DNA of 64,000 nt from Exobasidium rhododendri. Lineage: Eukaryota; Basidiomycota; Exobasidiomycetes; Exobasidiales; Exobasidiaceae. Location: assembly GCA_026210745.1 (NCBI GenBank), contig CP110630.1:1860001-1924000 (forward strand). Direction: 5' to 3'. The notes beneath the pieces were generated by a model. The model made no database searches. It was not told where the DNA came from and worked only from the letters and a program-made list of their open reading frames with translations. Position 1 is the first letter of the stretch. Each line of letters starts with the position of its first letter. This document shows positions 27,586 through 43,263 of this stretch, in pieces. The position numbers were made by a program, and so were the translations under genes.

Positions 27586-30500
27586 ATGAGTCCTTCAAAG
27601 GGGCAGAGGCGAGGGACGCGAAGTAGCAGTATGACTTCAGAGCCAGGGAGTATACATGCAGCTGAAGATACGGCACAGCCCGAAGCTGGTCCCTCTCGCA
27701 TTCAGTATCCTCCTACCGCCGCTCAGCGCGGGGGCAGGGAGAACGAGTCTGGTGTGATTGGTGTTCCCTCCTTCAACTCTTCGTCGTCTTTGTTCTGGAG
27801 GGGAAAAGAGGGAAAAGGATCTGCAGGACAAGAACAGAGTAATGATGTGATGGAAGACAAAGTTGAAGAGCAACAGGATCCATTGATGGAAGATGCTCTT
27901 CGATCATTGCCACTTGCTAGAGAGCGGCAACCATCTCGCACGACACAGGACGATCTTCCGTCCAGCAGCAAGGGTCGGCGATTATCGGCAGCATCTCTGG
28001 CTCACAGAAGTATCCCAGCTCAATTAGCTCCTTCTATTGCATCATCTAAGAGTTTGGTAGGCGGTTGGAAAGACTGGCTTACTGCAAAGTCAAACAAAGA
28101 CAGCACATCCAAGAAAGCTGAAGCAAGCAAACGACTAGATAGGAGATTAAAGAAAGCAGAAAAGAAGTCAAAACAACGAAAGGAGAGAGCAGCAAGACGT
28201 TCGTTCTCGATCAGCAGTGAAGGCCGCGATTCAGACGAAGACATTGTTTTGACTATGGATCAAGCTGAGAAAAGACCCTCTCTAGACGTCCCACCGCCAA
28301 ATGAGACTACGGCCAACGCTTTATCACAGGTTGCAGGACTAAGGAAGCCAAAGCTGCACTTTGCCCCAGAAGAACGAAAAGTAAAGAGGAAAGATTTGCC
28401 AATTGATTATGAGCAGGGGGAGTTGTATAGAGGAATAGACGATTATGTCAAGGCAGCTCGAAACAGAAGACGAAACGTGAAGAAACAAGACAGAAAGAAA
28501 GGCTCGAAAGCCAGCAGTCGAGGAAGCAGAAGTTCCGTTAGCAAGAGCTCGATGAGCAGCGGGGACTCGTCTAGTAGTTCATCTAGTAGCGATGGAAATA
28601 TTTCTTCTGGATCTTCGAGTAGCTCTGCTTCGGGTCGTTTGACTATGGCGAGATTACGGGCGTTCTTTGGTGACTCTTCCAGCAGTAGCAATTCTAGTTC
28701 TTCTTCTTTTAAATCCTCAAGCGACTCTTCCGCCGGCAGCAATAGAAACTCAGATTCATCGTCATCCTCTTCGACATCCAGTCGTAGTTTTCATCTCTTC
28801 CGGCGCAGAAGAGCCTCTCGTGGTGATTCAGCATCCGAGACTGACAGTTTTCAACCAGGCACGCCTAGAACTCCTGCTTTGAGCTTTCATATCAAGGGTG
28901 GAGCACAAAGAAGAAGGCGTAGGAAAGCAGTCAAGCGATATCGTGCACAAAGGGAGAAGCTCATAGAAGAGGGCAAAATCCCTCCGAGACCAAGCAGGAA
29001 AGCAAGGAGGAAAGCTGAATTGGCTCGAGCGCAGGCGGGTGGAGTGACTGAATACATCTTGTTTACCCCCATTGCTCTCACCACCTCTGATTTTGCTCAA
29101 AAGCATCATCACCACCATCATCAACAGTCTCATCTTTCGGCAGTGTCTGATCAGCAAATTGAATCGAACAACCCAAGTCCTGCTCCAAATCGGGTGCTGC
29201 AAAGTACTGCATTTGCTCCTGTAAGGAACCGATTGCATGCGCTACGTAGACACCGAAGGCAGATCGAGAATGCTGCAGGCGATATTGGACTTGCTGAAGG
29301 GGAACAGGCCAATGTCGACTCCGTATTCGAGGAAGACAAAGTAGACAGGGACGACCTGAAAAAGGATACTAAGCCGAAAGAGCGCTCTATGGCGGATGAA
29401 TTGGATTTTGAGGATGGTGATCTTGCTTTACCGCCGCCAGCGATAGATCTTCCGTCCAAAGATGGCTCATTAAAATCTACTTCCACTATCAGGCGGAGAA
29501 AGGAGAGGAAGAAAAGTGACTGGCACATGTCAGACATTCCCTTGACGCCTCACATTCAAATGGCTACTGATTTTGCTCGAGGTTTCGAAGTAGGCTCTCC
29601 TCGAAAAGCTACGAAATTTGCTCCCATACTGAACACGCACAAAGAGCAAGGTGCGCTACCCTCCTTTCGTAGTCCGGGACATACACCGGAATCAAACAGC
29701 GAGGGTCAGAGCAGCAGTGTGAATACAAAAGTGCCCAATGGCCTGGCCAGCCCTTCCGATGGAGGAGCTCATGCTGCTTGGTGGCTCGACATCAATTGCC
29801 CGACGTACCGTGACATGACGGAGTTGAGCAAAATGTTCCCTTTGCACCCCCTCACGGTAGAGGATATCCTGCAGCAGGACACTCGAGAAAAGGTGGAAAT
29901 GTTCGAAAGTCTCAACTATTACTTTGTGGTGATCAGAGCGATTGATGAAAAGTACTTCAAATACACTTCTGCTGCGACTGTGAAAGAACAACCAACGAAA
30001 AGCGACGCAGAAGTGGATGATGGTGACGTCAATCTGGAGCATCTACCAAAGTCGATCGAAGACGAGGACGAGATTGAAATGACGGAGTTGAAACGGACCC
30101 CCTCATTCAAGAAACCAAGAGTGGACATTATCGAAGGAGTAGGCGGGAAAGAGGGCGTGGAAGGGATTGGAGTAGGTGCAGTCAACTTGTACCTGATCGT
30201 CTTCAGTCATGGTGTCCTCTCTTTTCATTTTGAAGACATCAGCAATCACACCAATCGGGTCCGAAGCCGACTATTGGATGTAACGCAACCTGTCGAACTG
30301 ACGAGCGATTGGGTAGCGCACGGACTATTCGACTCGATCGTCGACGCTTTCTTTCCTTTGCTCTCCTTTCTGATGACGGAAGTGGAAGAGATTGAAAAGT
30401 TGACGAGTGAGCCATTACCTCAAAGCAGGCAGAAAAGAAAAAAGAAAAACTTGATCGTCGGCTTGGAGGCAGATGGAGTGATGGGTGGTGTTCACAGTCT

Positions 30501-31302
30501 TCCCGTCGCTTACCTGCATGAGAAAGAGGAACGACTTGTACTTCGACCACTGCCGCAGATCACCTTACCCGCCATGGCCACCTACCTCCTTCCCTCTATT
30601 CTATTGTCTCGCAAGCACTGTGTTAAAAGGAATGTCGTCGATGAAAATGCGCCTCAACGCCCGCGAAGCTTCATCCAACGCATCTTTGGCATCAATCGGA
30701 AGAGATCTCCTGCAACTGCCTTTCTGTCCGACAATGCGCGAGATCAAAGCACCATGTTGCGACGCATCACTGATATTCACAAGATTGTCACCGGTCTTAG
30801 CCGGCTGTTGACACCCAAGAATGACAGCGTGCGGGGACTAAGGAAGCGATTGACAGACTTTAGAGGATCAAGCAGCTCTATGACGGAAATGACAATGTAC
30901 ATGGGCGATGTCCATGATCACATCGTCTCACTGCTTTCCCATCTCTCTTCCAGTGACAACAGACTCGGAGATATCCACTTTCTCTACTTGTCAAGTATTC
31001 GGATCAACAACAATCGTGTCAGCCATTCAACCGACGAGATCTTGGTCATCTTGGCCACAATCACCGTTACCATCTTAGCCACTATCTACGTTATTTCCAT
31101 CTTCTCGCTAAACGTTCGCCTTCCACACAATATCAGACCTGGAACGGACACCGAGCAGAGAGAAGGCGTCCCCTCTGTCCATCATTGGTTCGGTGGTGTG
31201 GTTGCTGCTGCTTGCTGTGTGCCACCGTTGATCTACTATAGAACTCGACGGTGGATTCAGCAAGCAAAGAAGCGAAGCGAGGCTAGGAGAGCGGTCCGAT
31301 GA
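27586..31302 (+). CDS. CorA/Mnr2-like Mg transporter with non-canonical signature motif
   Basis: One uninterrupted frame gives 1238 residues. The first about 700 are disordered: long Ser runs (residues 310-400), basic patches and a His-rich stretch (KHHHHHHQQSH, about 506-516). The CorA domain begins near WWLDINCPTYRDMTELSKMF, with HPLTVEDILQQDTREKVEMF and NYYFVVIRA, all hallmarks of Alr1/Mnr2-type transporters. The stalk helix (GLRKRLTDFRG, YMGDVHDHI) leads to two transmembrane segments at about 1152-1173 and 1200-1220. After the first, where CorA proteins carry Gly-Met-Asn, the sequence is Ser-Leu-Asn (1174-1176). The family conducts Mg ions at plasma membrane or vacuole; the changed motif makes the ion and activity uncertain. 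The true start may differ because ATG GTATGAG could also be a splice donor. Confidence 0.85.
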   Translation: MSPSKGQRRGTRSSSMTSEPGSIHAAEDTAQPEAGPSRIQYPPTAAQRGGRENESGVIGVPSFNSSSSLFWRGKEGKGSAGQEQSNDVMEDKVEEQQDPLMEDALRSLPLARERQPSRTTQDDLPSSSKGRRLSAASLAHRSIPAQLAPSIASSKSLVGGWKDWLTAKSNKDSTSKKAEASKRLDRRLKKAEKKSKQRKERAARRSFSISSEGRDSDEDIVLTMDQAEKRPSLDVPPPNETTANALSQVAGLRKPKLHFAPEERKVKRKDLPIDYEQGELYRGIDDYVKAARNRRRNVKKQDRKKGSKASSRGSRSSVSKSSMSSGDSSSSSSSSDGNISSGSSSSSASGRLTMARLRAFFGDSSSSSNSSSSSFKSSSDSSAGSNRNSDSSSSSSTSSRSFHLFRRRRASRGDSASETDSFQPGTPRTPALSFHIKGGAQRRRRRKAVKRYRAQREKLIEEGKIPPRPSRKARRKAELARAQAGGVTEYILFTPIALTTSDFAQKHHHHHHQQSHLSAVSDQQIESNNPSPAPNRVLQSTAFAPVRNRLHALRRHRRQIENAAGDIGLAEGEQANVDSVFEEDKVDRDDLKKDTKPKERSMADELDFEDGDLALPPPAIDLPSKDGSLKSTSTIRRRKERKKSDWHMSDIPLTPHIQMATDFARGFEVGSPRKATKFAPILNTHKEQGALPSFRSPGHTPESNSEGQSSSVNTKVPNGLASPSDGGAHAAWWLDINCPTYRDMTELSKMFPLHPLTVEDILQQDTREKVEMFESLNYYFVVIRAIDEKYFKYTSAATVKEQPTKSDAEVDDGDVNLEHLPKSIEDEDEIEMTELKRTPSFKKPRVDIIEGVGGKEGVEGIGVGAVNLYLIVFSHGVLSFHFEDISNHTNRVRSRLLDVTQPVELTSDWVAHGLFDSIVDAFFPLLSFLMTEVEEIEKLTSEPLPQSRQKRKKKNLIVGLEADGVMGGVHSLPVAYLHEKEERLVLRPLPQITLPAMATYLLPSILLSRKHCVKRNVVDENAPQRPRSFIQRIFGINRKRSPATAFLSDNARDQSTMLRRITDIHKIVTGLSRLLTPKNDSVRGLRKRLTDFRGSSSSMTEMTMYMGDVHDHIVSLLSHLSSSDNRLGDIHFLYLSSIRINNNRVSHSTDEILVILATITVTILATIYVISIFSLNVRLPHNIRPGTDTEQREGVPSVHHWFGGVVAAACCVPPLIYYRTRRWIQQAKKRSEARRAVR

Positions 31303-32327: not shown

Positions 32328-35238
32328 ATGGCTGACTTCCCCGCTACAGAAAATGGCAAGATCAGCTTGAAGGGTCGAGTTGCCATTGTCACTGGAGCAG
32401 GCAATGGTATAGGACGAGCGTGAGTTCAAGTCGCAGTCCAGAGGAGCTGTCTGCTAAGGGAGATGTGCGTTAGGAGAAATTGACTCAAATCCGTTTACAC
32501 TCTCCTCCGCTCCCTGCCGCACCTCTCAGTTACGCTATGAGTCTAGCTTCGAGAGGTGCAAAGGTCGTCATCAATGATTTGGGTCCCTCAACTAAAGACA
32601 AGAATAGGAAAGCAGCAGAGGTGGTCGCTGAAGAGATCACAAAGGCTGGAGGGGAAGCTATCGCTAATCTTAACTCCAACTTGGAAGGGGACAAGATCAT
32701 CAAGCAGGCCATGGACAAGTGGGGTCGAGTCGATGTGAGTAATTGGTCGAAGGAGAGAGGATGAGCACGTCTCATACTTACTTGGGAATATCTCCCCCTT
32801 GCTAGATCCTTATCAACAACGCTGGTATCTTGCGTGATAAATCCTTCAAGTCTATGTCTGATCAAGAGTGGGATGCGATCACAGCAGTCCACATCACTGG
32901 CTCCTACATGTGTGCTCACGCCGCTTGGCCTATCATGAGAAAGCAAAAGTATGGACGAATCATCAATATCGCATCAGCTGCTGGAATTTACGGCAACTTT
33001 GGACAGGCAAACTACAGCGCAGCCAAGCTTTCCATGGTCGCGTTCAGTAAGACACTCGCGGTAGAAGGTGCAAAGTATAACATTTTTGCCAACACGATTG
33101 CACCGGTTGCTGCCTCTCAAATGTTGGAGACAATCATGCCCAAAGAAACGCTGGATCAATTGAAGCCTGAATTTGTGGCGCCTTTGGCTACCTATCTCTG
33201 CTCGGCAAGCAATGAAGACGTCAATGGGCAGCTCTTTGAGTCGGGAGCGGGCTTTATGGCTGCGTTGCGACGTCAACGGAGCAAAGGAGTCTGTTTCAAA
33301 ACCGACGAAACCTTCACTCCCGCAGCTGTTCGCGAGAGAGTCGAGGAAATCTTGGACTACGACGAAGATGCCGAATTTCCAGACAAGGTTACCGATGCCA
33401 ACTACACGGAACTTCTTGAGAGAGCAAAAGCAGCGAAACCGAATGAGCAAGGTGACAGTCCCATCAAGTTCGACGGTCAAACGGTTCTTATCACCGGCGC
33501 AGGAGCTGGTCTCGGAAGGGCCTACGCTCTCATGTTTGGTAAGCTAGGCGCCAATGTGGTGGTGAATGACTTCTCAGAAAAGGCGGCAAACGCAGTGGTA
33601 GATGAAGTAAAGAAAGCGGGAGGTAAAGCAGCGCCAGCCGTGGGGAGCGTTGAAGATGGTGACAAAGTTGTGCAAGCTGCTGTGGACGCCTTTGGTGGAT
33701 TGCACGTGGTTGTCAATAATGCTGGAATCCTTCGTGACAAGTCTTTCGCCAGTCTGGAGGACAAGGACTGGCATGCTGTAGTGAATATTCACCTGCGAGG
33801 TACTTACAAGGTATGCAAAGCTGCCTGGCCGATCTTCCTGAAACAAAAGTATGGAAGGATCATCAACACAACGTCGGCCGTTGGCATCTATGGTAACTTT
33901 GGACAAACGAATTACTCTACTGCCAAAGCAGGTATCCTAGGTCTGACTCAAACACTGGCCATTGAGGGGCAAAAGAACAACATCTTGTGTAACACCATCG
34001 CACCAAACGCTGGAACGGCCATGACCTCCACCATCTGGCCACAAGAGATGGTCGACGCTTTTAAACCGGAGTTCATTGCGCCTGCCGTTGGTTATTTGGC
34101 CAGTGAAGCAAACACAGAGCATACCAAGTTACTCTGGGAAGTGTCGGGAGGTTGGATTGCTGCCGTTCGATGGCAAAGATCGGCTGGCCATGCCTTCAGT
34201 CATGGTAAGGAGTTGACACCAGAACAGGTAGGCAAGAAGATGAACAAGATTCGAGATTTCGACCCAGAAACGTCTGCTTTCCCAGCCAACAATCAAGAAG
34301 CAATGATGGACATTATGGCAAACATCGGACAAGATTCGTCAGACGATGACGAAGAGGAAAGCAGTGGCGACGGCGAAGACTACGCTGATCCGGAAGACTC
34401 TGATTTAGTCAAGGAAGCAAAGAAGCAGCAACATGATCCGCAAGATTACGAATATCAAGAGAAGGATATCATTCTTTACAATTTGGGTGTTGGAGCTTCT
34501 GCAAAAGAGCTCAATTACGTGTATGAGGGGGCAGACGAGTTCCAGGCCATTCCTACTTTTGGTGTAGTACCCATGTTCAGCGTCATGAGCACCTTCCCAC
34601 TCGACTTCTTGCCTGATTTCAACCCTGCCAAGTTACTGCACGGTGAGCAAAGCCTCAAGATCATCAAGCCGATTGCTACAAGTGGAACGTTGACATCGAA
34701 GGTGAAGCTAATCGAGTGTTTGGACAAAGGTAAGGCGGCCAGCGTTGTCCTGAAGACGATCACAAGTGACAGCAAAGGTGAAGCGCTGTTTGAAAACGTC
34801 TCTACTCTGTTCATTCGAGGAAGTGGTGGATTTGGAGGCAAGAAATCAACTAGTCGACAAGACGAAACAACAGCCGCCAACAAGCCACCAAGCAAGGAAC
34901 CTGACGCAATCTTGAAGCAAAAGACAACCGTCGATCAAGCAGCCCTTTATCGATTGTCCGGTGACTACAATCCTCTACACGTCGACCCACAATTTGCCAA
35001 GATGGGTGGGTTTGATCAGCCAATCTTGCACGGTCTTTGCTCGTACGGTGTGACGGGAAGACTCCTGCTGCAGAAGTTTGGTCCTTACAACACTATCAAG
35101 GCAAGATTTGCAGGCACAGTCATTCCAGGTGAAGAAATCACTGTCAAAGCGTGGAAGGTGGAAGACAAGAAAGTCGTCTTTGAAAGCTACGTCGGTGATC
35201 GACTTGTCTTGAGTGCAGCAGCTATCACACTTGTCTAA
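32328..35238 (+). CDS. FOX2: Peroxisomal multifunctional beta-oxidation enzyme (Fox2/MFE-2)
   Basis: Three exons (32328-32419, 32530-32734, 32806-35238) join to 909 residues. Two tandem short-chain dehydrogenase domains are plain: the first has TGAGNGIGRAYA, NNAG and YSAAK; the second has TGAGAGLGRAYA, NNAG and YSTAK. The C-terminal MaoC-like hydratase-2 domain has YRLSGDYNPLHVDPQFA and GLCSYGVTGRLLL. The protein hydrates trans-2-enoyl-CoA to (3R)-hydroxyacyl-CoA and oxidises it to 3-ketoacyl-CoA. An acidic linker (DDDEEESSGDGEDYAD) precedes the hydratase domain. The end is ITLV, not a recognised peroxisomal PTS1, and no PTS2 is seen in the N-terminus; fungal homologues normally carry a PTS1. 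Functionally it could use acyl-CoAs made by Fat1, but the genes are 25 kb apart. Confidence 0.95.
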
Positions 35239-35587: not shown

Positions 35588-36948
35588 TCACCTTGTCTTG
35601 CTGGCATCAGGACTGTTGAGGTCGACGACGGTAGAAGCAGAGCGTGGTGCTTGGTAGTGATGAGTCACAGCATTCCCTTCGTGTTGATAGCCTGTGGCTT
35701 GAAGTGCGTCGAAGTTTCTGGTCGTCGTGCTGGTGAGGTACAGTTCGCCGATCAAGGGTACCTTCCTAGAGGCCGTGCAATCGTCCGACACTTCATGACA
35801 AGTGATAGACGACCAAGAGGCAGCCCATAGTGAGCCTACGACCGAGACATTGATCAAAGTAGTGACGTATTGCTTTGGAGATGATTTGCAGCATGAGGAG
35901 CGTCTGGCAACGATTGTCAGACTATCATACCCCTTACTTACCTTGACTATCTCTTCATCATCGTTATGGTACTTGGTCGTGATGACGCATAGAATAGCGA
36001 GCGGACAAGTCGGTAGATAGGTCATAAAGATAGCATTCTGATGCCATAGTTCGAAGAGGAGCGAAGGTTAGTGACATTACCTTGTATTCGTTTCAAAGTC
36101 ACTCGTCGCACTATTCTCTCTCACAACAAAGAAACGTAGATACTTTTTCCTTGAGTATCCTCTCTTCATACTCCTTTGAAAGTCTTTCAGTACCTTGTAT
36201 GCCAGAAAGCAAGAGGCAAAAAAGCAAAACGCCGCCTGCAGAGAGTAGTCGATGATCGCTGCATTCTTGTACTTGTCGTAATTTGCCGTATCGACACTGG
36301 CATCAAAGCCTGTGAGAACGGTGGCATCCTTCCAGATCTTGCTCGCTTGAATGGCGACCAGAAGGACAAGAAGGAGTCGCGGAGCCAGCAGGATGCTCGG
36401 TGGTAGAAGTCGATACCATGTGTCGATTGGTGAGTATGCCTTACTCGGATAGAAGCTGACAATCTTGAAGAAGACGGCAAAATCAGCTAGCAAGGGTACA
36501 CAGTGCTCTAAGACGAGCGACAAAATGTGGTCTGGGAGAAGGTAGAATAGCAGCACTTCATTTGGCGACAATCTCTGAAAGGACCGTTTGAGATTTCGCA
36601 GGACAGCCTGCTCTCTTTGTACTTACATCGTCCCTCTCTGCCATGGTTAGCATTGTCCTGCGGCATCATCAACAGTATGTCATACTCCCAAAACGCCTGC
36701 AATTGCGTCAGGATAGTGGTCACGATTGCCAGCTGAAAAGCGAGAAATTGAAAAACGAAGATGGCTCCGCGACGCTGCTTTTTCGTCGAGAGGAGGACAA
36801 GACTGATGAACAGCGTCACCAAGATACCCAGCCATACGCTTGCACAACGTAGCATTTCCAGACTTCCTTTGATGGCTTCCTCTTGAAGATCGCTGACGTG
36901 GAATGTGTCATCGGTGGCGTTGTAGAGGGAAGCGGGATGTAAACTCAT
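35588..36948 (-). CDS. Seven-transmembrane receptor-like protein, copy 1 of 3
   Basis: Four exons (36948-36627, 36531-36125, 36037-35942, 35872-35588) join in frame to 369 residues. Seven hydrophobic segments are visible: ASVWLGILVTLFISLVLL, AIFVFQFLAFQLAIV, VPLLADFAVFFKIVSF, PPSILLAPRLLLVLLVAI, DYSLQAAFCFFASCFLAY, NAIFMTYLPTCPLAILCV and LINVSVVGSLWAASWSSI. A short N-terminus has an N-glycosylation site (NAT), the third intracellular loop is basic (SRKKYLRFF), and the C-terminal tail is hydrophilic. Exon joins were chosen by phase and by alignment with the two paralogues; a downstream acceptor before HILSL was needed for intron 1. Topology suggests a G-protein-coupled receptor, with pattern resemblance to Ste2-type class D receptors in TM1-2 and TM6-7 (weak, by eye). 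Ligand unknown. Confidence 0.75.
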
Positions 36949-37388
36949 AAGGACGATGTGAGAAAAAAAGCGAGGTGGACGGCACGATAACTGACTGCGT
37001 GTGTATGATGCATATGCAGATGCTTTATAGATGCCATTGTGTTCAAATTACGGATTTCTACAATAAGGGCAAGTCGAAAGACGAAAGGCGGTTACGGAGC
37101 CGCTCGTGAACAGGATATTGACGAGGTATGAAATTGCAGCTCCGAATACATTGCAAGGAGAGCCGTCTGTGTACTTTGAGGAAGCACGGACGCGGGCAAA
37201 AAGGCGGCATCGACGAAGTCACACCTCACTAGTCCTCCTTCTTCCCTCCCTCCTTATTATTATTACGAGCGAGCAAGCAAGATGCAGTGATGCTGTCCAT
37301 GAAATAGCGTGTTTGTGTCTTTAATCAGGTAAAGGGACAATAATTCACCTAATGGGGAAAAGGTGCCAAGGCGTGCGCCATCTTGACC
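36949..37388. other. Intergenic between tandem receptor-like genes 1 and 2
   Basis: 440 bp. Promoter region of copy 1 and 3' flank of copy 2. No repeats shared with the next spacer were noticed. Confidence 0.5.
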
Positions 37389-38844
37389 CTACTCTTGGCC
37401 ATGCCTTGGAGGCTGCACAGGAGTCGTGATGGTGATTGAGCTGGAGCTATCGAGCGGGCTGCTCTCTTTGTCAGCTGGTCGATTGATGGAATGGTCCAGT
37501 TGGTAGACACTGTAGTTAATCATGGGGATGCTTTCGTTCCTGTTTCCGTCAGTGGCATCATTCTCGACGATGGACCCCGTCAAAGTCGTTCCGAAATCCT
37601 TTGTTTCGTAGAGCTGGTGGACGAGCGGTAGGTCGGGGCCAATCTTGTAGTCATTCTCCAGCCTACTCCCCCGAATCGTCGACCAGGACGTAGCAAGGAG
37701 GGAGAAGACCACTGATGTGTTCACCAGCGCAGCGGCCGTGGTCTACATGAGGAAAGGAAATGGAGGAAAGGAAATCGAGGAAGATCAGCTAGCGTTTCTT
37801 GAAAGCAGTGCACCACCTCATGGAGATGCGTTACCCTAAATTGATTCGCATTGTCCTCGTTGCCGTTCACAAGGACGGCGCAAGCGATTGACAAGGCTAG
37901 AGGTGGGAGAAAAGTCATAAATGTTGCTTCCTGTACGATGATACGGGGATAGATGTCAGCGTACTTGTAATAACATGAGCGATGCGCTCATTCACAGTCT
38001 CGACTGACCATGAAGAAGCGCAACTTTTTCTTGATTGTCTTCGCTGCCATCTGCTTCAAGTTGGCATAGAAGTCGATGGTCTTGTATAGGAGAGCACAAG
38101 AGGCTAAGAAACAGAAGGCCGCCTGAAGACTGAAATCTAATGTTGCAAGGATGACAAAATCTGCCATCGTTGAGCGCAGCATGTACTGGAGCAGGAGGCC
38201 ATCGCGTAGAGAGGTCTGATTGTACAGATCGTAGGCGACGTAGGTGGAGTAGCTTGCAATGACTACTCGAGGGACGAGCAGCAGTATCGGCGGAGCAAGT
38301 CGAGCAATGCGTGCTCTTCTCGAGTAAATGTTAGAGGGGTAGAAACTCAGCACTTTAAATAATAGTGCAAGGTCGGCGATGAGAGGGATGAAGTGCTCTA
38401 ATGCGAGGGTGGTGACTTGCACTGGAAAGGTCGGAAGAAAAGAGGGGCGGCATATTTGCATCAAGAGGATTGCTTTTAGATTGCTTACCGACTTTATTTC
38501 TCCCTCGCCTTCCCTGCCAACTCACCTGCATTCTCTCTGTCAAAGTCTTGTATCTCCCCAGGCCTGTTAAACTTCGAGTCGAACTTCCACCTAGCTCGGA
38601 ATTGGACCAGCGAATTGTATATGCAAGCGAGCACAAAAATGGAGCACTGTATGACAAAGATCGGGCCTTTTCTCTGATGAGCTGTTGATTGTAGTACGAG
38701 TGCAATTCCTAGTGTCACCAGGACCCCGATCCAAAGATTTGCAACCGCTATCCGCTCCATTGCTGTTCGGAGCGATGTTGTGTCACTCGCTTCGAGATGA
38801 AAGCTTCTGTCGTAAGTATCGTAGATGGAAACTGCGTCTGCCAT
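37389..38844 (-). CDS. Seven-transmembrane receptor-like protein, copy 2 of 3
   Basis: Four exons (38844-38526, 38421-38009, 37930-37835, 37742-37389) join to 393 residues. The start MADAVSIYDTYDRSFHLEAS aligns with those of the other copies. Conserved blocks are QRKGPIFVIQCSIFVLA (TM2), LALEHFIPLIADLALLFKVL (TM3), DFSLQAAFCFLASCALLYKT (TM5), KKLRFFM, then EATFMTFLPPLALSIA (TM6) and LVNTSVVFSLLATSWSTIRG (TM7). The exon coding TM6 has exactly 32 codons, as in both neighbours. The C-terminal tail is acidic and probably cytoplasmic. Identity to copies 1 and 3 is moderate, so the duplication is old. Same possible role as copy 1; no ligand can be named. Confidence 0.75.
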
Positions 38845-39589
38845 GGTAAGGAGCGTGTGTGTATAGCTGCTGAATTGGGACAATGCAAAGGTGAACGTGA
38901 AGAAACAAAAGAGAAGAGAAGCATCGAGGTGATAGTGCGGTGTGAGCCGTGGAGGATGGAATGGATATGAAAGGAGGGTCTTACTTACTCCTTTTCGTTA
39001 AGCCTTCTCTTTTCTCGTTTGTTGGTTTGTTGGGCAGGTAGTAAGTCTGCCTCATTCGTGCAACACTCCTTCACTAGAAATACGCCCTCCGTCTTTAAAG
39101 ACCGAGGAGGAGAGTGGCGGACTCTGCTTGCAAGATTTACGGCAACTTAAAAGATCTAAAGGCAGGTGTATCGGATTGTATATCGAGGAACCGGTACAAC
39201 AGTGATACGTTGTGAAGGGAAATGGACAAAGAGGCCGCTTTGTATTAGCAGTCAAGGGACGAGTGGCGGATTGCTGGCACCGGAGTTCCAAAAGAGCCAG
39301 GAACACCAGGAGATACTATAGAGAAGTCAGAGCAAGACGCTGGCCTTGTCGCTGGGAGATTGAGGCGGTACGCATTGTCGAAAGGTGGGTCAGGGAGAGG
39401 TTGAACATCCAATATGAGACACAGGCAGGACAGACCTCGTCAAACTATCCGCGCTCTAGTGCTTGTGTCGGATACTAGACTGCATAGAGCAATGACCGTC
39501 TCGGGGTGTCCTTTGTCGTCGATTTGTATCATGCTGGGTCCCCAGAATTGTTTCAATCGTCGTCTAGCATGTCAATGAGTGCGACATTC
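38845..39589. other. Intergenic between tandem receptor-like genes 2 and 3
   Basis: 745 bp with no credible exon. A plus-strand frame at 39212-39478 is Arg-rich and featureless and was not accepted. Promoter of copy 2 and 3' flank of copy 3. Confidence 0.5.
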
Positions 39590-40816
39590 TTACAAGTGTC
39601 GTGTTTCTTTGTTCACCTCTTCGTTCGTGGCGTCCTTCATTTCGAGCTCCATTGCCTTTGAAAAGGGATGTAGAGGTAGATCGTGAGATCTCTGCTCTCC
39701 TTCTTGTGATCTTTGAAAAATCTGCGAGATGAGAGCATGCTTTGGCATGCTTGGTTTTATGCCACTCTCTATGCTTCGGCTACGAATCGACGACCAGGAT
39801 GTAGCCAGAAGCGAAAAAATGACGGAAACATTAACGAGAGAAGCAGCGGTGAGCTTAAAATAGAGAGATGGTGTGAGTGTCATCGGTGTAGAAGGGTGAC
39901 TGTGAGTGTGCTTGGTGACTTACACGGAAATCAGCGAGCTCTGGTGAAGGTCCTCTCAGAACGATGTTGCAGCTAATCGAAAGGGCAAAAGGAGGAAGGA
40001 AGGTCATGAAGATGGCTTCCTGTGACGTGCATTCAAACCCAGGCCATCTCTTCTCCAGCTGTGATCAGATTTTCTCGATGCACTCACTATGAAGAAACGC
40101 AGTCTCTTCCGGATCGCTCGTGATCCCAATTGCTTTAAGTTTCTATGGAATTTGGTCGTCTTGTAGAGGAGTGCGCATGTAGCATAGAGACAGAACGTCG
40201 TTTGGAAAGAGTAGTTCAAGATCGCAATGAGATTGAAGTACGTCAACAAATTGGGATCGAGACCTTGCCTGACTTGCCCTCTAGTCTGACTTGTAGTCGT
40301 GTATATCTGATGACCAATCTTGGTCAAGTAGCTGACGAGAACAAAACGAGGAAGTAGCAGGAGAATGGGAGGAGCCAATCGAAAGGTGCGTGCTTTGATC
40401 GAGTAAAGGCTGGACGGGTAAAAGCTGAGAATCTTGAACACCAAAGGAATATCTGCCAGAAGTGGCACCCAATGTTCTAGCGAAAGGCAGGCGACCTGTA
40501 TTCGGTTCTCTCGTCTAAAGTTGTATGCGTTCCCTGGCATCGAGAAAACAGCGGCGTGCTGCCAAAAACCGCGTAGCTGAATCAGGGCATTGTATGCCAT
40601 GGCAAGAGCGAATGAAACACACTGAATGATGAATATGACCCCTCTTCTTTGTTGAGCTGTTGAGAGAAGAACAAGGGCAATTGCGAGAGTGAATTGGATT
40701 CCGAGCCAGAGATTTGCAGTGGCGATCTTAGCCAAAGACAGTCGAAGAGTGACCTCGTCAAATCTTTGTATGTGGAATGTTTGGTCGCTTGTATTAAAGA
40801 GTGAGGACGATGACAT
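39590..40816 (-). CDS. Seven-transmembrane receptor-like protein, copy 3 of 3
   Basis: Three exons (40816-40088, 40019-39924, 39853-39590) join to 362 residues. The start MSSSSLFNTSDQTFHIQRF matches the paralogues; an upstream in-frame ATG at 40873 would only add a low-complexity leader. The first exon spans the region split by intron 1 in copies 1 and 2. Seven hydrophobic segments are present, with QQRRGVIFIIQCVSFALA (TM2), LEHWVPLLADIPLVFKILSF (TM3), NYSFQTTFCLYATCALLY (TM5), IRKRLRFFI, EAIFMTFLPPFALSIS (TM6) and LVNVSVIFSLLATSWSSI (TM7). The TM6 exon again has 32 codons. A donor-like sequence at the stop (ACTTGTAAGA) leaves open a further 3' exon. Probable receptor; function unproven. Confidence 0.75.
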
Positions 40817-41278: not shown

Positions 41279-43263
41279 TTACAGCTCCTTCTTGAGACTG
41301 CCAAGATGACCTTGCACCTTTCCATGCGCCGCCGTCCCCGCCTCTCTAGCTTCCTTCTCTACCACATCAACGTCCATGACGACCGGATTCCCATGCGAGG
41401 CTGGATCACCATTTTTCACCATCTTTCCTGCCCGCTCGTTTTTCTTCTTTTGCGCAACGCCGGAAGCTTGATCCAACGCCTTTCCTAGTCCAGCTCGAAA
41501 TGTGATGATTGACACTAGGACGGCAAAGACACCGTAATAGTAAAGCGTGCGCCAGCCTTGCAAGCTCTTGCCGACATCGAGCAGTATGAAAGGGATCACA
41601 GCAAAATTGACAGTCAACTGAACAGCGATGATAGACAGTAGACTGTAGAGAAGCTGACTCGTTGTGTAATTGGACAACGTCTTGAAGGAGGGATTCGGCG
41701 ATCGGGTGTTCTCGAAAACGACAGGTCGGAAATGAGAGCGAAACGTGCGACCGACGGATTGAAACAGACCGCCCAACACAAAAGTCACTGTCTCACTCTC
41801 GCTTAAGATCAGCTGATGCATTCTCACACAACAACAGACCCTCCACTCACAGTAATAGCCCGGCGCGACACCATGCCAGAACGCACTGGTCATAAAGGTA
41901 AGCATGGTGCTCTTAAAGCCAGGTTTCTTTCCAGGTCGAGTGACTCGCTTGTAGACACAGTTGCGCAGCCAGACGTCTGAAGAGCGGCAAGGAAAGAGAG
42001 GAGTAGCGGCTTCAGATCTCTGAAGGCCTTGCATACCTGACGCTGGCAAGATGCAAAAACACTCACTTGTGTTCATGTTCCACGAGTCTAGCAGCTCTTT
42101 CCAATTGTTCGCAAATTCAATTCCACCAACCTTGATGTTCTTGCATCGATCCCATCGTCCTGGGCCATTGTAGGAGAGACCAGAGAGGATGCAAGCGCCC
42201 TGAATAATGCGAAGCTCGTGCAGGTGATTAGTGTGCGATCAGATGGAACACTGCCTTTCCACTCACATTAGTCAGGGTCCAGATTCCATAGTACTTTGTC
42301 CTTGCAGCAAACCCTGCCATCTGTGCATAGCCAATACGAGCCAATGGTCCGAGATTCTTGGCACTCTTCGGATCATCAATGGGCAGAACGAGAGCCGCAT
42401 AATCATAGCGAGGCGTGAGGAGACCCCAGGCAGCCATGTATGCTATTCCTGTCAAGAGCTCTAAAAGTGAAGCCTGCACTCTTCCCGACGGTGGCAAGGA
42501 TCCTGTAGAGCCGTATAGCGCTCCAGTCGACCAAGCACGATAGTCGTTGAATCTAGTCGAAGGACCAATGAGTATGCCTGGGAAGTAGAATCTGCCGAAT
42601 TCCAGAAAGAGCGAAGCATTGTGTGATGAGCTGGCTGATGTGTGAAATCCGACTATCTTGTAGCACACTCACGCATAGCCTAGGAATTCCAGCAAGGAAG
42701 GTTCATCAATAATCCTCGTCGTTCTTTGTTGTTCATCACAATCTGCCTCCTTTCTGTTCTTGCCATCATGAATACTCCAGGCATAGCTAGTAAGATTCAT
42801 GCAAAGCACCATCTGCATTGCTGTGATCTCAATCGTAGTCAAAGGGACGTTGCCGAATGCTCGAACCATGTGGTTGACAGTCAAATGGCCCATCTGTAAT
42901 GCAAAGACAATCCAGGGCATCCTCTTTTGCCCTATATTCTGGCGTGTGAGTGTGTACGTCAGGAGGCAATTGGCGAGCAGCTGCAAGTAGCTCCACTTTA
43001 GATCCATGATTCCATAGAGGTAGAAGGTTGTGACGCTGACATTGTATATGTGTTTTCCAGTAGTCGACAGGTACGGAAAGGGATATGCTAGTGGATAGGA
43101 GAGAAGGAAGAGAGAGAAGAGCTGGTACGATACAGTCTCCTTCTGTTCAATGGAGGGTCTTTGACGTTCGCAAGCTGACATTGCGCGCTCGCAGCCTCAC
43201 CTTGACGTAATCTACCGGAGTGGCCGTGGATTCTGCCAGCTTTGCAAAGGCATCGTTGAACAT
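41279..43263 (-). CDS. ALE1: MBOAT lysophospholipid acyltransferase (Ale1/LPCAT-like)
   Basis: Six exons (43263-43201, 43142-42673, 42591-42267, 42199-42067, 41976-41851, 41787-41279) join to 541 residues. The joins restore the family blocks GYAFYFPGILIGPSTRFNDY, GIEFANNWKELLDSWNMNT, WLRNCVYKRV and SAFWHGVAPGYYLTFVLGG. His365 in WHG is the MBOAT catalytic histidine. About ten hydrophobic segments make it a polytopic ER protein. Ale1-type enzymes reacylate lysophosphatidylcholine, -ethanolamine and related lipids with acyl-CoA in the Lands cycle. The lysine-rich end (KKNERAGKMVKNG, then LKKEL) is cytosolic in type. It may draw on acyl-CoA from Fat1-like synthetases, but the loci are not adjacent. 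Confidence 0.92.

Follow-up and report, generated by a model that had tools for sequence, protein, structure and literature searches.

Do three adjacent genes on the minus strand of the Exobasidium rhododendri genome encode receptors and, if they do, of which kind? The genes, here called A, B and C, lie in a stretch of 64,000 nucleotides of contig CP110630.1 (positions 1,860,001 to 1,924,000; hereafter the window, whose numbering is used unless another contig or locus is named), from an Exobasidiomycetes species described as a Rhododendron parasite (PMC13010171). A sequence-only reading had likened the array to Ste2-type receptors and had remarked that this type is not expected in basidiomycetes. 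That remark agrees with two recent publications, a 2025 survey covering 1357 fungal species (PMC12842992) and a review from 2026 (PMC13308352), which place class I (Ste2-type) receptors in Ascomycota only. We consider it probable that A, B and C are paralogous seven-helix receptors of the cell surface, belonging to a family with a distant relationship to Ste2, the fungal class D receptor.

Splicing of the three loci returned the lengths and coordinates that had been proposed, and all three genes are intact. Gene A (39590..40816, 362 amino acids) has three exons (40816-40088, 40019-39924 and 39853-39590), whereas genes B (37389..38844, 393 amino acids; exons 38844-38526, 38421-38009, 37930-37835 and 37742-37389) and C (35588..36948, 369 amino acids; exons 36948-36627, 36531-36125, 36037-35942 and 35872-35588) have four each; all introns are canonical GT-AG introns and none of the spliced frames contains an internal stop. 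In an alignment of the three proteins B is 47% and C 37% identical to A. When gene C was used as a query against the genome it matched exons of A and B with E-values down to 1.5e-50 and 3.3e-20, so that the likeness among the three is not a matter of chance. The three introns of B and C coincide in position and phase; A has only the second and third of them. Its exon 40816-40088 runs through the site of the phase-1 first intron of B and C, and in paralogue E, encoded elsewhere in the genome, an intron matching in phase lies no more than one codon from that site. This pattern suggests that one of the tandem copies lost an intron cleanly. The degree of divergence also bears out the earlier view of an old, retained duplication. 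The shared motifs proved less uniform than first described: the TM7 (seventh transmembrane segment) block SLLATSWSSI occurs as such in gene A only, with SLLATSWSTI in B and SLWAASWSSI in C, and the basic block before TM6, KRLRFF in A and KKLRFF in B as had been said, reads KKYLRFF in C. Sequons are found in the N-terminal parts of A (NTS) and C (NAT).

The family extends beyond the array: the genome of E. rhododendri CBS 101457 holds at least five members, the other two being D on contig C3 and E on contig C2. Paralogue D (504 amino acids) has the same sequence as a hypothetical protein deposited in GenBank for this strain; by contrast, none of the database matches listed was identical to any of the three array proteins, whose genes may lack annotation in GenBank unless their entries fell outside that listing. 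The best model of E is a prediction that requires a 7-base micro-exon (L031:3511-3517) flanked by two canonical introns. Protein database searches, each scoring no more than about 8000 candidates, gave P0001, a homologue from Meira miltonrushii (E 4e-31), together with P0002, the further relatives P0003 to P0005 and, with D as the query, P0007 and P0008. These relatives are a lower bound, P0002 having been found once and then missed by a later search that included it as a query, and the searches do not show that the family is absent from other fungi. Two sets of nine proteins were used below: alignment A4 (A-E and P0001-P0004), and a tree and residue set (A-E, P0001, P0002, P0007 and P0008). 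In a tree of the latter with Ste2, genes A, B and C group together (support 99/98), D groups with P0007, P0008 and P0002 (98/98), and E and P0001 fall outside both groups; the long branches of E and Ste2 may join falsely. As judged from this tree, the array duplication would postdate the split of the main subfamilies, and A, B and C are themselves well diverged.

Seven hydrophobic segments had been ascribed to each array protein. A hydropathy scan gave 6, 7 and 6 peaks above threshold in A, B and C, respectively, so the count holds directly for B; for A and C it is predicted by way of their homologues, since all three proteins align over the entire helix part to P0001 and D, the predicted structures of which have seven helices (TM6 is split in D). 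In A-E the part before TM1 is short, at less than about 40 residues. Lys and Arg are more numerous in the inner loops than in the outer parts of all nine members, narrowly so in P0002 (16 vs 15), a bias that fits an N-terminus outside the membrane. Only five of the nine have outer parts with a net acidic charge, and four carry an N-terminal sequon.

The likeness to Ste2 that had been seen by eye extends to the predicted folds of the homologues D and P0001. The model of D reproduces the fold and helix arrangement of the solved Ste2 structure, and in a comparison with the PDB Ste2 was its clear best structural match, leading by at least 3.8 Z units among the best 50 rows, with 13-16% identity in the structural alignments. 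For the model of P0001, which is of poor quality, TMEM87A tied with Ste2. For both models all rhodopsin rows ranked below Ste2 among the matches listed. This ranking bears on the proposal that the proteins form a seven-helix transporter, pump or enzyme without a receptor role, as does the outcome of the Pfam and NCBIfam scans, in which no enzyme or carrier family reached its cut-off and the NCBIfam matches were all weak and to families of bacteria; we regard that proposal as highly improbable. A further alternative makes A, B and C trafficking proteins of internal membranes, with the seven-helix architecture of the GOST/Wntless group, instead of surface receptors. Weak matches to WLS-like_TM (PF06664) in two of the nine A4 members (P0003, E 0.0015, 18.3 bits; P0004, E 0.0059) hint that profiles do not readily separate the GOST fold from that of class D. 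No A4 member reached the WLS-like_TM cut-off of 28.3 bits, however, the short segments before TM1 leave little room for a lumenal domain, and for D, the better of the two models, neither TMEM87 nor WLS was among the best 50 rows that Ste2 led, though either may rank lower. We consider a trafficking family improbable and return to receptors related to Ste2.

Searches with sequence profiles point in the same direction with less force. The Pfam STE2 family (PF02116) matched residues 13-292 of gene C over profile positions 17-279 of 280 (E 0.0013, 18.6 bits). P0002 was the only other A4 member to match it (10.2 bits), the remaining seven giving none, and P0007 and P0008 had no receptor-family match in the Pfam scan. 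STE3 (PF02076) was matched at E ≤ 10 by none of the nine A4 members and by neither P0007 nor P0008 in these scans, which upholds the earlier preference for Ste2 over Ste3. Taken by itself the Pfam evidence is ambiguous. A search of the whole genome with PF02116 produced no candidate; it also missed gene C and the controls and is thus uninformative. When the A4 profile was run against 177,635 distinct PDB sequences, seven rows were returned at E ≤ 10, of which the top three were Ste2 (0.01, 0.019 and 0.022), and Ste2 was the sole G protein-coupled receptor (GPCR) among them. A trimmed seven-sequence profile gave a single Ste2 row against the PDB sequences, the TM1-2 fragment 2k9p (0.01); neither the profile built from just the three array proteins nor P0002 by itself found anything there. 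Global alignment of the tree set to Ste2 with hhalign paired motifs of TM1-2, TM3 and TM5 in order with a score of 28.1, compared with 3.3 for a reversed protein and a maximum of 19.9 for 300 window-shuffled copies. In local mode the observed score was reached by 3 of 150 window-8 shuffles and by none of 150 window-20 shuffles. With HMMER the family profile scored 9.3 bits on Ste2, barely above the best shuffle (9.2).

These scores could also arise if the family belonged, as a diverged branch, to the DUF6534 seven-helix proteins of basidiomycetes (PF20152) and its likeness to Ste2 were general to fungal seven-transmembrane (7TM) proteins. According to the 2025 survey, DUF6534 proteins are the largest unassigned 7TM cluster among the 1357 fungi and have been put forward as GPCRs (PMC12842992), and weak DUF6534 matches were obtained for three of the nine A4 members (best E 0.051; best score 15.1 bits, in P0003). 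The three, P0001, P0003 and P0004, are similar to one another, and the gathering cut-off of 28.2 bits was reached by no family member scanned. The same genome has DUF6534 matches above cut-off at three separate loci (C1:6141338-6141688, C3:3190925-3191251 and C3:3955130-3955381). When the family profile was applied to open-frame segments of at least 40 residues from the DUF6534 and STE3 loci, none exceeded 2.4 bits, compared with the 9.3 bits of Ste2. The comparison is uneven because the segments are exon pieces, and 5.2 bits were scored by an unrelated frame of 41 residues at the locus of E. On balance we think that membership of DUF6534 is unlikely and favor a distant relationship to Ste2.

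A number of observations nevertheless weigh against that relationship. The STE2 score of gene C (18.6 bits) is below the Pfam gathering cut-off of 27.2 bits, gene A had no Pfam match, and gene B matched only an unrelated family (E 0.065), so that STE2 was found in neither. The two Ste2 stretches matched by the A4 profile are ordered correctly, yet taken separately they have i-E values of 0.19 and 11. The probability given by hhalign for the pairing of the family with Ste2 was 49% in global and 8% in local mode. In Ste2, Gln149 (3x50) and Pro290 (7x50) are reported to be 99% conserved and Pro258 (6x50) 98% (PMC8942848). The residue that global alignment pairs with Gln149 is Lys in seven and Arg in two of the nine family members, and none of the nine has a proline in the TM7 segment, Pro290 thus not being kept.

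Further positions can be set beside those of Ste2. The TM3 block of gene A, ADIPLVFKIL (residues 121-130; 40427..40456 on the minus strand, coordinates hand-derived from exon 1), places the acidic D122 at the Glu143 position and the basic K128 at that of Gln149 in the global alignment to Ste2. All nine members have a TM6 proline, shifted by one residue towards the C-terminus in E and P0001, which the global alignment does not pair with Pro258. In alignments read by eye, the Lys225 position is basic in eight of the nine and Gln in E. Where TM6 begins, eight members have a Glu directly after the basic block, and C has an Asn. By analogy with the lock of class A receptors, the Lys or Arg at 3x50 may pair with this Glu in a modified resting lock. 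The proposed Ste2-type resemblance therefore stands as far as the Pfam match of gene C and the fold of D carry it, and falls short in the score below cut-off, the lack of a match in A and B, and the missing signature residues. Judged on sequence, the family would be Ste2-related and not standard Ste2, and a common ancestor with Ste2 is moderately supported.

The same residues bear on whether orthodox Ste2 alpha-pheromone receptors could have been acquired from an ascomycete by recent horizontal transfer. Such an origin would account for the STE2 match of gene C in a group outside Ascomycota, from which alone Ste2 is otherwise reported (PMC12842992, PMC13308352). It sits poorly with the 13-16% identity between D and Ste2, the lack of Gln149 and Pro290, the deep divergence among members in the tree and the homologue in Meira, and we rejected recent transfer of a true Ste2 as very improbable given this divergence and the absent signature residues.

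If A, B and C are indeed Ste2-related receptors, their mode of action can be sketched by analogy. Placed at the cell surface, they would bind an extracellular ligand, at a guess a secreted peptide, through the short N-terminus and extracellular loops. Ligand binding would rearrange the helix bundle, and the basic inner face formed by intracellular loops (ICL) 1 and 3 and the cytoplasmic end of TM5 may then activate a heterotrimeric G protein, presumably one of those encoded in the genome, where G-alpha matches above cut-off were found at four loci. A single sub-threshold match to Git3 lies away from the array.

We regard a role in mating as unlikely: another locus carries the STE3 matches together with a pheromone-like open reading frame (ORF). 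The STE3 matches span C2:1308564-1311807 and probably represent two receptor genes. About 1 kb from them is a short minus-strand ORF (L032:1242-1517, where L032 is C2:1306000-1314000) with an internal repeated block and CVIA as its last residues; we take it to resemble a basidiomycete lipopeptide pheromone precursor. These sequences suggest that the genome has the mating system typical of basidiomycetes away from the array, and reading the array as a mating locus was set aside as unlikely, the STE3 matches and the pheromone-like ORF being on a different contig.

With respect to the ligand, a secretome survey describes basidiomycete Kex2-repeat proteins that resemble alpha pheromones and speculates about cognate GPCRs (PMC6339444). 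A six-frame scan for repeated dibasic-site (Kex2-repeat-like) peptides gave no peptide-precursor gene near the array in the 64-kb window, for which 15 rows of short tandem repeats are listed. The array family is a candidate for the receptor side of such alpha-pheromone-like peptides. The wider proposal, that Basidiomycota keep a second, divergent class D GPCR branch that has expanded in Exobasidiomycetes and senses secreted Kex2-processed alpha-type peptides outside mating, is speculative, and we would give it a small chance of being correct.

Our search of the open-access literature found no prior report of basidiomycete Ste2-like receptors or of Exobasidiomycetes receptors. The 2025 survey began from BLASTP searches with 67 known receptors (PMC12842992), and a start of this kind could miss relatives as remote as the array family. 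What appears to be new is a divergent orphan family of Ste2-related, receptor-like proteins in Basidiomycota, whose tie to class D shows in the predicted fold and, weakly, in the sequence. A 2012 paper on fungal GPCRs placed the origin of Ste2 and Ste3 in Dikarya (PMC3251606). If the relationship is true, the origin of class D moves before the split of Ascomycota and Basidiomycota, or an old transfer is needed, and the family would supply natural variants of the class D switch, with a basic residue at 3x50 and a TM7 without proline. It would also offer candidate receptors for the secreted alpha-pheromone-like peptides of basidiomycetes (PMC6339444).

The array is flanked by a gene for a multifunctional enzyme type 2 (MFE-2)-like protein with short-chain dehydrogenase, MFE-2 hydratase and MaoC domains (32806-35238, plus strand) and by one for an MBOAT acyltransferase (41279-42238, minus strand); a link of either neighbor to receptor function is not evident. 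A long plus-strand frame at about 27600-31000, with a serine-rich, basic N-terminal part, resembles a CorA-type metal ion transporter by eye only.

Among known systems, Ste2, the alpha-factor receptor of Saccharomyces cerevisiae (class D1), is the closest in the PDB to the predicted fold of paralogue D, and the family shares with it an Asp at the Glu143 position, six residues before 3x50, in all nine members, the lack of DRY and NPxxY motifs, and a basic ICL1, after which B, D, P0007 and P0008 have the same P-I-F as Ste2. It differs in its short N-terminus, in its TM7 (A[T/A]SW[S/T] in place of LPLSSMWA), in its three tandem copies with two more elsewhere, and in its basidiomycete host. Wntless and TMEM87A of the GOST group come level with Ste2 only through TMEM87A and the poor P0001 model, and differ in the lumenal domain for which A-E have little space and in their absence from the best 50 rows for D. 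DUF6534 proteins are likewise basidiomycete orphan 7TM proteins. Ste3 receptors (class II, PF02076) are also fungal 7TM receptors and are encoded in the same genome, but their matches lie at the C2 locus, and the array members have no match to STE3.

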